From: Acidimicrobiales bacterium
GTDB lineage: Bacteria; Actinomycetota; Acidimicrobiia; Acidimicrobiales; Iamiaceae
Direction of reading: 5' to 3'
Assembly: GCA_035547835.1 (NCBI GenBank)
Contig: DASZTW010000015.1
Coordinates: forward strand, 1-64,000
Length of the DNA: 64,000 bases
Shown here: in pieces, positions 1 through 21,254 of the stretch
Layout: every line of letters begins with the position of its first letter
Numbering within the stretch: the first letter of the stretch is position 1
Notes under the pieces: generated by a model
Database searches by the model: none
The model's input: the letters and a program-made list of their open reading frames with translations, nothing else
What the model was told of the DNA's origin: nothing
Made by a program: the position numbers and the translations under genes

Positions 1-636
1 GAAGTGGACGTGCAGTCCGGCGAGCTTGGACGCCGACAGCTTCCGCCGTGACGCCTCGCGCCCGAGCCAGTCCTTCCAGTCCGGCGCGATCTGGTGGTGC
101 CGCACGTAGGGCGGGTTGCCGAGCCAGAGCGTGCGACCGTCGGTCTGCGGCGGCAGCGCACGAAAGTCGTCGAGCACCACGTCGGCTCGGTCGGCGAGCC
201 CCGACACGGCGATGTTGGCTCTGGCACACAGGGCAGCGAGTGGGTCCACCTCCACTGCGATGAGACGGGCCTTCGGGAACGTGTGCCCGGCCGCGATGGT
301 GAACCGAGCGGAGCCAGCACCGGGGTCAACGACACGATCCGGTGCGCCTTGTGCCTCGGCCCACTCCATCATCGCGTTGACGATCTCGTAGGGCGTGTAC
401 GTCGCCCCGAGCGGACGGCGGGCGTCGGGGGAACGGAGGCCACAGAACACGTCGCCGAGCGGGTCACTCCGAGCCTCGATCATGTCCCGCACCGTGCTGA
501 CCGTGGCCTGGTCAGCCTTGGGCGCACTCGCCGCCAGGGCGGCTTCAGGAGCCGTCAGCTCCCCGACGGTGTCAGCGCCCAGGGCGACCGCCACACCAGC
601 CAGGTCAAGCTCTGAGGAGAACAACGGACCGGGCAT
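1..636 (-). CDS. Adenine-specific DNA methyltransferase, C-terminus cut by window edge
   Basis: The complement strand is open from the ATG at 636 to the window edge (212 codons). Visible motifs are a TPYEIV segment near residue 83, an AdoMet-binding motif VDPGAGSARF near residue 107, and the catalytic NPPYV motif near residue 172. This order (motif I, then motif IV as NPPY) is that of N6-adenine methylases of the Eco57I/type I M-subunit class. It would methylate adenine in DNA using S-adenosylmethionine. Target recognition and any linked restriction gene lie outside the window. An in-frame GTG at 657 is an alternative start. The gene points away from the tRNA-Ala scar at 840-889, so it probably belongs to the integrated element. 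Confidence 0.85.
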   Translation of the reverse strand, partial: MPGPLFSSELDLAGVAVALGADTVGELTAPEAALAASAPKADQATVSTVRDMIEARSDPLGDVFCGLRSPDARRPLGATYTPYEIVNAMMEWAEAQGAPDRVVDPGAGSARFTIAAGHTFPKARLIAVEVDPLAALCARANIAVSGLADRADVVLDDFRALPPQTDGRTLWLGNPPYVRHHQIAPDWKDWLGREASRRKLSASKLAGLHVHF

Positions 637-800
637 AAGTCGACCGTAGTGTTGCACAGGTCGAGGCGGTCCCCTCGGGATGTCGAGCCGTGCCCACGGC
701 ATTCCCACGGCGTGCCCGCCAGGACACACACAGGCCACGCGAGAGCGGCGGCAGCTGGCGGCGGGTGTCGGAGGGTGGCGCTAGAACCGCAGGTCAAGTG

Positions 801-812
801 CGGGATATCCCG
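801..812. repeat. Perfect 12-bp palindrome beside the attachment scar
   Basis: CGGGATATCCCG is a perfect palindrome 28 bp inside the presumed element end. It could be an arm site for an integrase or excisionase, or chance. No function can be assigned from sequence alone. Confidence 0.4.
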
Positions 813-839
813 AAAGGCCCTGGCAGGCGGGCCACGGAT

Positions 840-889
840 ACCTGCTTTGCAAGCAGGGGGTCGTGGGTTCGATTCCCATCGTCTCCACC
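840..889 (+). other. 3' half of tRNA-Ala(TGC): likely attachment site (att) scar
   Basis: An anticodon stem CCTGC/GCAGG encloses the loop TTTGCAA (anticodon TGC, 848-850). It is followed by a variable loop, a T arm with GGGTTCGATTCCC, the 3' acceptor strand CGTCTCC and then ACC. The 5' half is missing: the acceptor 5' strand expected around 815-821 does not pair, and no D arm precedes the anticodon stem. A 3' tRNA fragment of this kind is the classic duplicated core left when an element integrates into a tRNA gene. With the fragment on the plus strand, the element should lie to the left, with the intact tRNA-Ala at its far end outside the window. Confidence 0.8.
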
Positions 890-5836: not shown

Positions 5837-6115
5837 TCAGGGGCGGACCCTTGTCAGGGCGGTTCGGGGTCGGGCCCCGGAGGCCGCGCGGTGCTCAAAG
5901 CGATTGCAGCGCGCCCATGACCGGGTGATGTGCAAGGGCTTGCGCAGCGCTGCAAGCCCGGCAACGGCGCGGTCGGCGGACGATGCTTTCAACATCACGT
6001 CGCCGGGTCGCCAAGCACCGTGCTCCCCGCCAGGTAGGTAATCGAGGCGGTGCGGATCGCCGCCGGACACGATGACCACGGCGTGCCCCGGCGGCCTGCT
6101 GCCTGTGGCGCTCAC
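5837..6115 (-). CDS. Small ORF of unknown function in decayed accessory zone
   Basis: 92 residues from a GTG at 6115 that overlaps the TGA of an upstream short frame as GTGA. The sequence HAVVIVSGGDPHRLDYLPGG and WRPGDVMLKASSADRAVAGL has normal composition, whereas the longer frame upstream of it becomes Arg-rich shadow sequence; hence this start. No family is recognised. The last ~25 residues are Arg/Pro-rich and may be unnatural. It is downstream of the broken leader gene at 6290-6586. Confidence 0.35.
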   Translation of the reverse strand: MSATGSRPPGHAVVIVSGGDPHRLDYLPGGEHGAWRPGDVMLKASSADRAVAGLAALRKPLHITRSWARCNRFEHRAASGARPRTALTRVRP

Positions 6116-6289
6116 CCGGGCCAGCCTTCGAGCCGGCACTCGAGGTCGGTGACGGCGTGGAGCAGGCGATCCGGCGCGACGGTGGCGGGCGCCCCGGTGA
6201 CATCGGAAACGATCAGGTACGCGGGGAGCGCTGAGCATCTGTGGCGCTGTGAGCGCCGCTGATGCCCGCTCGGCACCCACAATCGCCCT

Positions 6290-6586
6290 CCGCGAACCTC
6301 GCGGCCCGTTGGAACGCCATTTCGGGACGACGGCGCGGTTCAAGGCGGCGCGCTCGACCTCGCTGGCGTCGAGGCTGCGGAACTTGTCGGCGGCGCCCAT
6401 CGGGTCGACGACGTGCACGACGCAGTCGCCATCGATGCTGCCCTGCGCGGTGCGATAGACGACGAGGCGCGTGGGCTGGTCGCGGGCGCTGAACGCCTCG
6501 ACGGCCTCGACCAGGCTGGTGACGTCGACGCCGTCGATCTCAATGGTGCCGGCGACAGGGGCGAGGTCGAGACGGAAGCGGGTCAT
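6290..6586 (-). pseudogene. Leader-gene paralogue (MTRFRLDLAP family), 3' end replaced
   Basis: The first ~87 residues match the intact paralogue at 7461-7781 closely (MTRFRLDLAPVAGTIEIDG, then DPMGAADKFRSLDASEVERA). After residue ~92 the frame becomes Arg/Pro-rich with no similarity to the paralogue's C-terminus. DNA identity with the other copy runs from about 6338 to 6626 and stops abruptly, marking a recombination junction. Related small proteins lie beside phage head-morphogenesis genes in actinobacterial prophages; I recall this only at family level, and no function is known. Confidence 0.5.
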
Positions 6587-6827: not shown

Positions 6828-7468
6828 CGCAACCACCCTCGCTTCTCGAACGACGCACGCAACGCTTCAGCGATTGGACCAAAGCCTTCCTCATCCCACT
6901 GTATTCCCGAGTCCGCCTGGAACCTCGCCAGCTCTGTCGCGAGGGCGGAATCATGCCCAGCGATCCACTGCGAGTAGCTGCGTGCCCATATCTCGGACGG
7001 GTCGAGAAGGTATTTGACCTGGGCGCGCTCGCGCGATGTCAGTGATTGAAGCTTCAATGTGTCAGGCGCGCGGATCGCCTTGCTGGCGTGCGCTGCGATC
7101 CACCACGCCTGAAGCCCTGCGGTCGTGCGACCTCCAGGCATTTCGGATGCAAACTCATCCAGTCCAAGTCCGCGGCGATCGAGATCGTGGCCGAATTTGT
7201 GCGTCTCGGCGAACCGAGGGTTGGCGCCGTGGGGATCGACTCGAATCTGGGAGGCGCCCGGCGGGAAATCGAAGTAGCCCTCAGCGCCGAATGCATCGCC
7301 AACGTGCACAAGAATCGCCGCCAGCCCCGTCGGCACACGGTGGAGCACCACAGGGTCGGCGTCGTCGTCGACTGCGGTGACCGGGTCGAAGGTCGGCGCA
7401 CCGGCGCGGTCGATGACGACGCTGGCGGTCATGCGGCTGCGGGCAGCTGCGCGCGCGGCTTCAAGCAT
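6824..7468 (-). CDS. Zincin-like domain of phage head/MuF-type protein, stand-alone
   Basis: 214 residues. The ATG at 7468 overlaps the stop of the upstream leader gene by 8 bp. ETHKFGHDLDRRG is placed like the HExxH helix of zincin domains attached to phage minor head or polymorphic-toxin proteins, but the catalytic Glu is Lys (HKFGH), so peptidase activity is doubtful. The C-terminal hallmark is DPSEIWARSYSQWIA, then QWDEEGFGPIAEAL and a terminal GWLR. I know this pattern from zincin domains at the ends of phage head-morphogenesis (MuF) proteins. The usual N-terminal head domain is absent, so this looks like a displaced tail module. Confidence 0.55.
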   Translation of the reverse strand: MLEAARAAARSRMTASVVIDRAGAPTFDPVTAVDDDADPVVLHRVPTGLAAILVHVGDAFGAEGYFDFPPGASQIRVDPHGANPRFAETHKFGHDLDRRGLGLDEFASEMPGGRTTAGLQAWWIAAHASKAIRAPDTLKLQSLTSRERAQVKYLLDPSEIWARSYSQWIAGHDSALATELARFQADSGIQWDEEGFGPIAEALRASFEKRGWLR

Positions 7469-7781
7469 CGCCGATCAGCTCCGCGACGACGTCGAGCACG
7501 AGACGCGTGTGGTTGGTCCCTGGCCCGGCACGGGTCAAGGCGAGGCGCTCGACCTCGCTCGCGTCGAGACTGCGCAACTTGTCGGCGGCGCCCATCGGGT
7601 CGATCACCTGCACGACGCCGTCGCCCTCGACGCTGCCCTGCGCGGTGCGGTGGACGACGAGGCGCGTGGGCTGGTTGACGGCGCTGAACACCTCGACAGC
7701 CTCGACCAGGCTGGTGACGTCGACGCCGTCGATCTCAATGGTGCCGGCGACAGGGGCGAGGTCGAGACGGAAGCGAGTCAT
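7461..7781 (-). CDS. Leader-gene protein, MTRFRLDLAP family, intact copy
   Basis: 106 residues: MTRFRLDLAPVAGTIEIDG, a VDVTSLVEAVEVF segment, QPTRLVVHRTAQGSVEGDG and a C-terminal VLDVVAELIGDA. The alternating beta-strand pattern resembles small proteins encoded with phage head genes. It is translationally coupled to the zincin-like gene (8-bp overlap). Its start lies inside the 65-bp leader repeat. Paralogous starts occur at 6586 and 9000. The function is not known. Confidence 0.6.
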   Translation of the reverse strand: MTRFRLDLAPVAGTIEIDGVDVTSLVEAVEVFSAVNQPTRLVVHRTAQGSVEGDGVVQVIDPMGAADKLRSLDASEVERLALTRAGPGTNHTRLVLDVVAELIGDA

Positions 7782-19149: not shown

Positions 19150-20214
19150 ATGACAGCTCGAGCGGCAGCCCGTCGGGTCCGCTCCATGGGGGCCCTGGCC
19201 ACCGCGATCACCCCGGCGCAAGGCATCACGGCCTACGGATGCGTGGAGGACGAAGCCGCGCTGTTTCGCGAGCTCGCGCCGCGCCTCGGGGTCGCCGTGA
19301 GGGTCACCGAGGAGCCACCGTCGGTCGCCAACGCCGAGCTGGCTGCCGGGAACCGCTGCATCAGCGTCAGCCACAGGTCGCCGATCGACGACGCGGCGCT
19401 CCTCGCGCTGCGGCGCGCCGGCGTGGGGTTCTTGTCGACGCGCAGCATCGGGCAGAACCATCTCGACGTCGCGTACGCGGAGCGCATCGGTATCACGGTG
19501 GGCAACGTCGCGTACTCACCCGACAGCGTCGCGGACTACACGCTCATGTTGATGCTGATGGCGCTGCGCGACGCCAAGTCGCTGCTGCGTCGGGCCGACC
19601 TCCACGACTACGCGCTCCGCGACCGGCCGGGCCGGGAGCTGCGCGACTTGACGGTGGGTGTGATCGGCACCGGCCGCATCGGCTCGGCGGTCATCGCCCG
19701 CCTGCGGGGTTTCGGGTGCCGGGTCCTCGCGCACGACACCCTTCCGGGCGCCGACGCGACGTATGTCGCGCTCGAGGCTCTGCTGTCGCAGAGCGATGTC
19801 GTCACCCTGCACGTTCCGCTCGACCCGTCGACCCGGCACCTCCTCGACGGCGACCGCATCGCCCAGCTGAAACCGGGCGCGATCGTTGTCAACACCAGTC
19901 GTGGAGGCCTGGTCGACACGGCGGCGCTCGTCGACGCCCTCGACTGTGGGCACTTGGGAGGGGCCGCGCTCGATGTGATCGAAGGCGAGCAGGGCGCGTT
20001 TCACGTCGACGGTCCAGGAGGGGGCGGGCAGGTCCGTGACGCCGGCGGTGTTCCGCGCGGGCGCGATCTGGTGGCGCGGCTGCAAGCCATGCCGAACGTG
20101 GTCGTGAGCCCGCACACCGCGTACCGCACCGACCACGCGCTTCGCGACATGGTCGAACACAGCATCGTCAGCTGCTTGAACTTCGGGATCGGAGATGCCG
20201 CATGGCTCGCTTGA
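19150..20214 (+). CDS. vanH: D-lactate dehydrogenase VanH
   Basis: 354 residues from the ATG at 19150 (an ATG at 19186 is possible). It would reduce pyruvate to D-lactate for D-Ala-D-Lac synthesis. Seen: GITAYGCVEDEAALFRELAP typical of the VanH N-terminus, a cofactor fold VGVIGTGRIGSAV, NTSRGGLVDT with the substrate Arg, then IEGEQGAFHVD and the catalytic His in VSPHTAYRTDHALRDMVEHS. The longer GEQGAFH region distinguishes it from ordinary D-hydroxyacid dehydrogenases. It overlaps vanA by 13 bp, so the two are translationally linked. Confidence 0.93.
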   Translation: MTARAAARRVRSMGALATAITPAQGITAYGCVEDEAALFRELAPRLGVAVRVTEEPPSVANAELAAGNRCISVSHRSPIDDAALLALRRAGVGFLSTRSIGQNHLDVAYAERIGITVGNVAYSPDSVADYTLMLMLMALRDAKSLLRRADLHDYALRDRPGRELRDLTVGVIGTGRIGSAVIARLRGFGCRVLAHDTLPGADATYVALEALLSQSDVVTLHVPLDPSTRHLLDGDRIAQLKPGAIVVNTSRGGLVDTAALVDALDCGHLGGAALDVIEGEQGAFHVDGPGGGGQVRDAGGVPRGRDLVARLQAMPNVVVSPHTAYRTDHALRDMVEHSIVSCLNFGIGDAAWLA

Positions 20215-21254
20215 GGATCGGTGTCTTGTTCGGTGGCTGCTCCGAGGAGCACCCCATCTCGGTGAAGTCCGCGCAGGAAGTCGCCCGGCACCTCGATCCC
20301 GAGCGGTATGAGCCGTTCTGGGTCGGCATCGCCAAGGACGGCAGGTGGAACTTGTGCGATGGCCCCGACCCCAGCTGGGCGGAGGGCGTGTGCCGGCCGG
20401 CCGTCGTCTCGCCGGACCGGGGCACGCACGGCCTGGTGGTCTTCGACGGTGAGCGCGTCGACACGATCCCGCTCGACGTGGCGCTGCCGGTGCTGCACGG
20501 CAAGCTCGGCGAGGACGGCGCGATGCAGGGTTTGTTCGAGCTCGCCGGCATCCCCTACGTCGGTTGCGACGTGCAGAGCTCCGCGCTGTGCATGGACAAG
20601 TCGCTCGCGTACACGGTGGTGCGCAGCGCGGGGATCGCCACGCCCGACTTCCGCAGCCTCCGGCCGGGCGAGCAGGTCGACCCGACCAAGCTTGCCTACC
20701 CGGTGTTCGTGAAGCCCGCCCGGTCGGGGTCGTCGTTTGGCGTCAGCAAGGTCGAGCACAGCGACGGGCTCATGGGGGCGCTCGAGGTGGCCCGGCAGTA
20801 CGACGGCAAGGTCTTGATCGAACAAGCGGTCGTCGGCAGCGAAGTGGGATGCGCGATCCTCGGCAACGGCGGCGACCTCGTCGTGGGCGAGGTCGACCAC
20901 ATCGCGCTGTCGCACGGGTTCTTCCGGATCCACCAGGAGGACAGCCCCGAGACCGGGTCGGAGAACTCGACGCCGATCGTGCCCGCCGACATCCCGGCTG
21001 CCTCGCGTGCCCGCGTGCAGGACACGGCCAAGGCGGTCTACCGCGCGCTCGGTTGCCGAGGCCTGGCCCGCGTCGACCTGTTCCTCCGGGACGACGGATC
21101 GGTCGTGCTGAACGAGGTCAACACGATGCCGGGCCTGACCTCCTACAGCCGCTATCCGCGGATGATGGCGGCCGCTGGCATCCCGCTCGGCGAGGTGCTC
21201 GACCGGGTGGTGTCCTTGGCCCTGGTCGGGCGGCGGGTCGGAGCGCTGCGGTGA
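20202..21254 (+). CDS. vanA: D-alanine--D-lactate ligase, VanA type
   Basis: 350 residues. This ATP-grasp ligase makes D-Ala-D-Lac, the altered peptidoglycan terminus that vancomycin binds poorly. The N-terminus VLFGGCSEEHPISVKSAQEV, HGKLGEDGAMQGLFELAGIP, CMDKSLAYTVV, VFVKPARSGSSFGVSKV, ALGCRGLARVDLFL and LNEVNTMPGLTSYSRYPRMM closely follow VanA-type ligases rather than housekeeping Ddl, and length is normal (~343-350). Its position between vanH and vanX is diagnostic. It shares a GTGA overlap with vanX. Confidence 0.95.
   Translation: MARLRIGVLFGGCSEEHPISVKSAQEVARHLDPERYEPFWVGIAKDGRWNLCDGPDPSWAEGVCRPAVVSPDRGTHGLVVFDGERVDTIPLDVALPVLHGKLGEDGAMQGLFELAGIPYVGCDVQSSALCMDKSLAYTVVRSAGIATPDFRSLRPGEQVDPTKLAYPVFVKPARSGSSFGVSKVEHSDGLMGALEVARQYDGKVLIEQAVVGSEVGCAILGNGGDLVVGEVDHIALSHGFFRIHQEDSPETGSENSTPIVPADIPAASRARVQDTAKAVYRALGCRGLARVDLFLRDDGSVVLNEVNTMPGLTSYSRYPRMMAAAGIPLGEVLDRVVSLALVGRRVGALR

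Follow-up and report, generated by a model that had tools for sequence, protein, structure and literature searches.

A Small Integrative Element That Probably Splits a Host tRNA-Ala(TGC) Gene and Supplies a Substitute

A tRNA-Ala Fragment at the Right End

The window, the whole stretch of 64,000 nucleotides analyzed here (G000:C15:1-64000), starts at base 1 of contig C15, with nothing to its left on that contig, in a draft assembly of 22 contigs (G000; 96.7% complete, contamination 0.13%). Positions 840-889 consist of ACCTGCTTTGCAAGC followed by AGGGGGTCGTGGGTTCGATTCCCATCGTCTCCACC and make up the anticodon arm, variable region, T arm, and 3′ acceptor strand of a tRNA-Ala(TGC) gene. Relatives with an unbroken copy of this gene have a matching 3′ half. 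No 5′ half adjoins them, as the initial annotation had noted and as direct reading of these positions bears out. The left end of the structure lies in a second stretch of the same assembly, L085 (C17:345000-364991). Features of the right end are as follows.

Window 1-636, minus strand: methylase N-terminal part, a type II adenine DNA methyltransferase with an NPPY motif (PADLOC MTase_II PDLC03222, model 57-270 of 602)
Window 1-854, unstranded: right end of the integrated element, from the attL/attR pair, the joined empty site, and methylase parts on both contigs
Window 790-796, plus strand: CAGGTCA, a candidate arm-type integrase site whose first base is 50 bases ahead of the core; at the left end, this heptamer begins 12 nt past the core
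Window 801-812, unstranded: palindrome CGGGATATCCCG, 27 bp inside the core
Window 840-854, plus strand: attR core ACCTGCTTTGCAAGC, the same sequence as the attL core (L085:8725-8739)
Window 855-889, plus strand: the host's original tRNA-Ala(TGC) 3′ half, separated by the insertion from the 5′ half at L085:8699-8739; the joined halves form a complete tRNA-Ala

The methylase reading frame (1-636) is cut by the contig start. The palindrome near the right end, also pointed out in the initial annotation, was recovered, and GGATATCC is present 71 bp inside the left end too. A search for arm sites found 10 8-mers in common between the element ends, not clearly above shuffled sequences (mean 4.0, highest 13, n = 300). 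Just outside the tRNA 3′ half, positions 927-975 contain an inverted repeat of 19 nt, possibly a terminator, whose arms are 89% complementary and 11 nt apart.

The fragment scores poorly as a tRNA. Rfam gives 33.3 bits for 830-887, with D-arm positions deleted and a mispaired acceptor stem, compared with 50-77 bits for the genome's 45 other tRNA matches. ARAGORN calls a 67-base "tRNA-Ala" at 823-889. We rejected this call as false because its D arm is almost absent, it has a C-C mismatch and an A3-U70 pair replacing G3.U70, and the same 3′ half placed after shuffled upstream DNA is called as a tRNA in 87/300 trials. ARAGORN likewise calls the 3′ fragment of relative L062 as a tRNA.

The Left End and the Joined Gene

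Contig C17 was located by using part of the integrase of a relative as the query; the match lies near the contig end beside a different tRNA-Ala(TGC). At L085:8699-8739 this contig carries the exact 41-nt native 5′ half, GGGGACGTAGCTCAGTTGGCTAGAGCACCTGCTTTGCAAGC, followed by non-tRNA sequence, and the left junction (attL) alone yields no tRNA call. Only the 15 bp ACCTGCTTTGCAAGC (840-854 in the window) is common to the two ends. When the halves are joined at this core, they match the intact tRNA-Ala of relative G019 (L062) exactly over its first 76 bases and are called and folded as a complete tRNA-Ala(tgc).

The attL/attR pair supports 840-889 as the right end of an integrated element, as the initial annotation had proposed, and changes what the fragment is. 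That annotation took all of 840-889 for the duplicated core and looked for an intact tRNA-Ala to the left. Instead, the ends have just 840-854 in common, 855-889 is the host's own 3′ half, and C17 holds a 5′ half that gives way to non-tRNA sequence right after the 15-bp core. With ≤2 mismatches allowed, the core pattern occurs in the genome just once, in the window fragment itself. The initial annotation would have read the assembly-wide lack of an intact tRNA-Ala with the same core as evidence against an element; the element is nonetheless present, because it disrupted the host gene and brought along a complete tRNA-Ala(TGC) of another sequence.

C17 ends within the methylase C-terminal part and C15 begins within the N-terminal part. 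We conclude that the contigs belong together because parts of one methylase lie on both and the same 54 residues (~162 bp) are missing between these parts by comparison with each of two complete homologues, on Micrococcus and Gordonia plasmids. Core to core, the element therefore measures ~12.3 kb (11,268 + ~162 + 839). To its left, RF3 matches the tRNA-Ala upstream regions of relatives L063, L069, and L079, and an alpha/beta hydrolase matches those of L063, L069, and L073. Among the relatives' loci compared, none of the right-flank genes lies next to tRNA-Ala except Fic (L077), and no synteny confirms the site on that side.

Gene Content of the Element

The part of the element on C17 contains the following features.

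L085:8725-19992 (C17:353724-364991): integrated element, left part, to which an inferred ~162-bp assembly gap is added
L085:9045-9257: HTH protein of 70 aa resembling a recombination directionality factor (RDF)
L085:9203-11449: primase-helicase
L085:11667-12158: 163-aa protein with a small-terminase-like domain (PHROGs 2.9e-9)
L085:13008-14216: tyrosine integrase (Pfam PF00589 E 1.9e-15; PHROG integrase E 2.1e-64)
L085:14264-14337: full tRNA-Ala(TGC), 67.4 bits
L085:15408-15683: ribbon-helix-helix protein, among small ORFs
L085:16786-17475: weak scaffold-like match (PHROGs 9.6e-5)
L085:17475-17708: WhiB
L085:17830-18294: EVE-like protein, below the Pfam cut-off
L085:18278-19195, minus strand: XamI-family endonuclease (RE_XamI E 2.5e-38)
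L085:19201-19992: methylase C-terminal part (PADLOC MTase_II PDLC03222, model 326-585 of 602)

Two expectations of the initial annotation were borne out here: the NPPYV methylase lies inside the element, with parts on both contigs between attL and attR, and an integrase gene of the tyrosine family is present (L085:13008-14216), ~4.3 kb from attL. The methylase and the XamI-family endonuclease are adjacent and make up a XamI-type restriction-modification (R-M) pair, of which homologues occur on plasmids. The methylase parts are 54% and 65% identical to the methylase adjoining a XamI endonuclease on a Micrococcus plasmid. Across the Gordonia and Micrococcus plasmids, the endonuclease is 52-53% and the methylase parts are 50-65% identical to ours, in the same order (methylase, then endonuclease), whereas the G000 copy sits on a chromosomally integrated element.

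A PHROGs scan of ten element ORFs, covering all but a few smaller or doubtful ones, returned matches to integrase, RDF, primase, an Arc-like repressor, the small-terminase-like domain, and, weakly, a scaffold; capsid, portal, tail, and large terminase had no match among these ten. Phage satellites of the PICI-like kind lack virion genes but carry an integrase, an RDF, a primase, and a small terminase. The element has matching gene types, some by weak PHROG matches, and may be a phage remnant, a satellite, or plasmid-like. We sought a phage or plasmid home for the primase-helicase and found partial matches only (71 plasmid and 60 phage records, <60% identity). Within the order, primase relatives at E 1e-30 occur in 12/397 genomes (own included) and have mainly the C-terminal domain in common. 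The same element layout is absent from 12 primase-relative loci of 11 other genomes, 7/12 of them short stretches (3.5-14.2 kb). No second copy of the element was found among the loci read, so it stands as a single case.

The Element-Borne tRNA

The tRNA-Ala(TGC) carried by the element, 47 bp after the tyrosine integrase, is complete but divergent. It scores 67.4 bits, its stems are intact, and G3.U70 is present. Its anticodon stem reads CAACC/GGTTG, against CCTGC/GCAGG in the host tRNA, and it therefore keeps little of the core beyond the loop and lacks the integrase target. GACGGTTCC and a TANGCT box lie upstream, as upstream of the native gene. Its 3′ end, TCGCCTCCAC, is repeated 30 nt downstream (L085:14328-14367), perhaps a relic of an older attachment site.

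We typed the 46 Rfam tRNA matches of the assembly with ARAGORN, the 46th being the window fragment. The tRNA-Ala set comprises GGC, CGC, and one full TGC, that of the element; no other full tRNA-Ala(TGC) was found in the 96.7%-complete assembly. The codon GCA, which requires tRNA-Ala(UGC) under the decoding rules, accounts for 180/2564 Ala codons in the window ORFs picked. The host tRNA-Ala(TGC) would be otherwise nonredundant and presumably essential.

Matches to the element tRNA at E 1e-12 occur in 45/397 sampled genomes of the order, with G000 alone representing its family. In the 30 loci that were typed, no tRNA-Ala of another genome exceeds 83% identity, and the top-scoring match in another genome is a tRNA-Gly (87% over 67 bases). 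A sample of 296 genomes from the phylum gave no match beyond the own genome at E 1e-15. Phages and plasmids searched at E 1e-4 gave 15 phage and 47 plasmid records, none close (60-90% identity), and no exact match to the 3′ part of the element tRNA was confirmed in viral contigs.

tRNA-Ala Loci and Integrases in Relatives

The same tRNA gene is a frequent insertion site in relatives. A 39-base core pattern (≤3 mismatches) matched in 33/61 genomes, and ARAGORN found a tRNA-Ala in 19/20 of the relatives' loci fetched. In 7/20 loci (L062, L063, L064, L065, L067, L068, and L076) an intact tRNA-Ala is followed 4.1-11.4 kb downstream by a 3′ fragment. An integrase of one family, or its remnant, lies between the copies in 4/7 (L062, L063, L065, and L076); none was seen there in L064, L067, and L068. 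The same integrase family also occurs in L066, L069, L072, L073, L077, and L081, and the L062, L065, L069, and L076 integrases are 31-40% identical to that of the element. One locus (L066, G059:C143) carries two tRNA-Ala 3′ fragments, separated by 4.7 kb, on a contig that lacks an intact copy, and L062 and L063 have a common two-gene module beside their att copies, both signs of tandem insertion at tRNA-Ala. The repeated insertion that the initial annotation had suggested finds support in this hotspot status of tRNA-Ala(TGC) among relatives.

When the 61 genomes were searched for the 5′ half, 33 matches turned up in 32 of them; the 30 loci read comprised 28 intact genes, one cut by a contig end (G020), and one split (G000). 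We excluded G020 as a second split tRNA-Ala, since its contig ends there.

The heptamer C[AT]GGTCA follows the complete tRNA-Ala at a distance of 10-11 nt in 8/16 intact loci scored (0.0046 expected per 25 nt), or 8/19 overall when three further intact loci that the scoring pattern missed and that lack the motif (L067, L070, and L074) are added. In G000 the distance, counted from the core, is 12 nt. This suggests that the attP of the element could be a version of the family attP lacking the tRNA 3′ half. The tie between CAGGTCA and the relatives is a lead only, because it was noticed after looking and tested once.

Integrase relatives at E 1e-20 occur in 155/397 genomes of the order, own included. 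Among the 30 such loci listed (own included), ARAGORN reports a tRNA in 23, one of them doubtful. In named genomes, a tRNA-Gly(CCC) lies behind the integrase relatives on the opposite strand in 30/32 loci. These named relatives, together with the WhiB gene of the element, suggest an actinobacterial host. No integrase relative was confirmed in viral contigs. A tree of 14/27 gathered sequences (BLAST check against the G000 integrase) left the G000 integrase unplaced on a long branch; most of the sequences left out may have been taken in a wrong reading frame.

Probable Insertion With Replacement of the Host tRNA

The most probable explanation, in which we place high confidence, is that an integrative element of ~12.3 kb split the host tRNA-Ala(TGC) and supplies a full substitute copy. 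A tyrosine integrase would have recombined the element, via the 15-bp core, into the anticodon stem-loop of the host gene. Unlike the canonical tRNA-site elements of relatives, this one appears to lack the tRNA 3′ half, which would be why the host gene was cut in two and why neither junction is predicted to hold a working tRNA. The tRNA-Ala(UGC) of the element, with its promoter-like upstream region behind the integrase, would now serve the cell, and its changed anticodon stem should free it of the integrase target. Losing the element tRNA should kill the cell unless the element excises precisely, in which case the host gene should be whole again. The window methylase would be part of a cargo R-M system.

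The assembled sequence shows both junctions and the split gene, along with the integrase, the R-M genes, and no more than one full tRNA-Ala(TGC). From these we infer that the integrase found here performed the integration and that the cell expresses and charges the element tRNA and relies on it. Several points weigh against this reading. The ends lie on different draft contigs with an inferred ~162-bp gap, and the missing sequence of the genome may hold an intact copy. The integrase is ~4.3 kb from attL, as against the tRNA behind the integrase on the opposite strand in 30/32 loci of named genomes. The right-flank genes, Fic (L077) apart, are unmatched beside the tRNA-Ala of relatives in the loci compared. 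The element is also a single case among the loci read, and its integrase sits on a long branch of the tree.

Three other explanations were weighed. The element may first have rebuilt the tRNA at attL and then lost the 3′ half by deletion, a second chromosomal tRNA-Ala covering the loss. The spacing of C[AT]GGTCA, 10-11 nt behind the tRNA in relatives and 12 nt behind the core here, looks as if a 3′ half had dropped from an ancestral attP. However, the element itself contains the replacement tRNA, the 15 bp of the two cores do not differ, and the tRNA is not an old resident, since no other member of the family of G000 is among the 45 matching genomes of the order (E 1e-12). We consider this history very improbable; loss of the 3′ half in the free element before integration is compatible with insertion and replacement.

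Less probable again is a canonical tRNA-site island, with the fragment as a duplicated 3′ scar and an intact, rebuilt tRNA-Ala at the left end that is merely unassembled. That arrangement is common in relatives, with an intact gene plus 3′ fragment in 7/20 loci and an integrase or remnant between them in 4/7, but here the left junction is assembled inside C17 and the tRNA sequence stops directly after the 15-bp core, so that the canonical model is already refuted unless C17 is misassembled at position 353738. Least probable of all is an assembly chimera of one strain with an intact tRNA and another with an island: the draft has 22 contigs and breaks inside the element, but contamination is 0.13%, the two parts of one methylase give agreeing gap sizes against two homologues, and the halves fit to the base.

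Known Counterparts

Replacement of a broken host tRNA by one from the insert has phage precedents. In tRNA-dependent lysogeny, described for the actinobacteriophages Fionnbharth, LeBron, Gaia, and others, a tyrosine integrase acts at a short core within a tRNA gene of the host, integration rebuilds no tRNA, and the phage carries a tRNA of matching isotype; experiments in mycobacteriophages have established the mechanism (Guerrero-Bustamante and Hatfull, mBio 2024, PMC10865867). The table for such phages in that paper gives tRNA-Lys, tRNA-Ile2, and tRNA-Leu, and its authors raised the question of how widely tRNA-dependent lysogeny extends (PMC10865867). Judged by sequence, the G000 element is alike in several respects: it encodes a tyrosine integrase, its attB is inside a presumably essential host tRNA gene, its core is of similar length (15 bp ACCTGCTTTGCAAGC at both ends, 8-17 bp in the phages; PMC10865867), neither attL nor attR has a functional tRNA (here by prediction, attL being uncalled and attR lacking a D arm), and it carries the cognate tRNA, which in Gaia also lies downstream of int (PMC10865867). 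It is unlike them in being a ~12.3-kb element with R-M genes and no match to capsid, portal, tail, or large terminase in the ten-ORF scan, and in involving tRNA-Ala(TGC).

Sinorhizobium meliloti prophages resembling Mesorhizobium phage vB_MloP_Lo5R7ANS, as described in PMC11476347, likewise replace an inactivated host tRNA, tRNA-Leu(UAG), with a divergent cognate of their own. The replacement is ≤80.6% similar to that of the host (PMC11476347); here, the best tRNA-Ala match typed in the order is 83%. Those inserts are, in contrast, intact prophages of an alphaproteobacterium (PMC11476347). PMC12429752 describes a search for the phenomenon in another prophage group, where it was not found. The open-licence literature searched yielded no case outside phages and prophages.

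The canonical tRNA-Ala(TGC) islands of the order (L062, L065, L076, and others) have the same target gene, related integrases, and C[AT]GGTCA next to attL. They differ in carrying the tRNA 3′ half and keeping an intact host gene at attL, with no replacement tRNA seen; such rebuilding of the host tRNA at one junction by an element-supplied 3′ half does not occur with the G000 element. Since islands of the same order ordinarily use this very gene and leave it intact, they offer a natural comparison for the passage from rebuilding a tRNA to replacing it.

The case points toward the phage solution in a small element without recognized virion genes and for another tRNA isotype. Whether tRNA hostage-taking extends beyond phages, with a small integrative element breaking an essential tRNA and substituting a recoded, integrase-proof one, is a proposition on which we hold the chances evenly balanced. 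If true, the element would be indispensable while integrated, like an addiction module, and a core translation gene would have been swapped for a divergent one. The case also carries a caution: what looks like a "3′ tRNA scar" may be one half of a disrupted gene, as opposed to a duplicate.

Genes Outside the Right End

Immediately outside the element, positions 1190-2530 of the window encode a SoFic-like Fic adenylyltransferase. The Fic of L077, which adjoins an integrase remnant behind tRNA-Ala, is 46% identical to it, and the window Fic may therefore derive from another insertion. Of two acetyltransferase remnants that the initial annotation placed outside the element, 3316-3585 matches Pfam GNAT (profile 65-119 of 128), whereas 967-1119 has no Pfam match up to E 1. 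The ORFs at 5837-6586 and 7461-7781 are a paralogous pair, 86% identical over 85 residues, and 5837-6586 matches no Pfam family. Farther along the window, a VanH-like D-lactate dehydrogenase is followed by a D-Ala–D-Lac ligase (19150-21254), forming a vanHA-like pair: the dehydrogenase matches the VanH model at E 5.8e-135, below the model cut-off, and the ligase scores 586.8 bits against a cut-off of 550.
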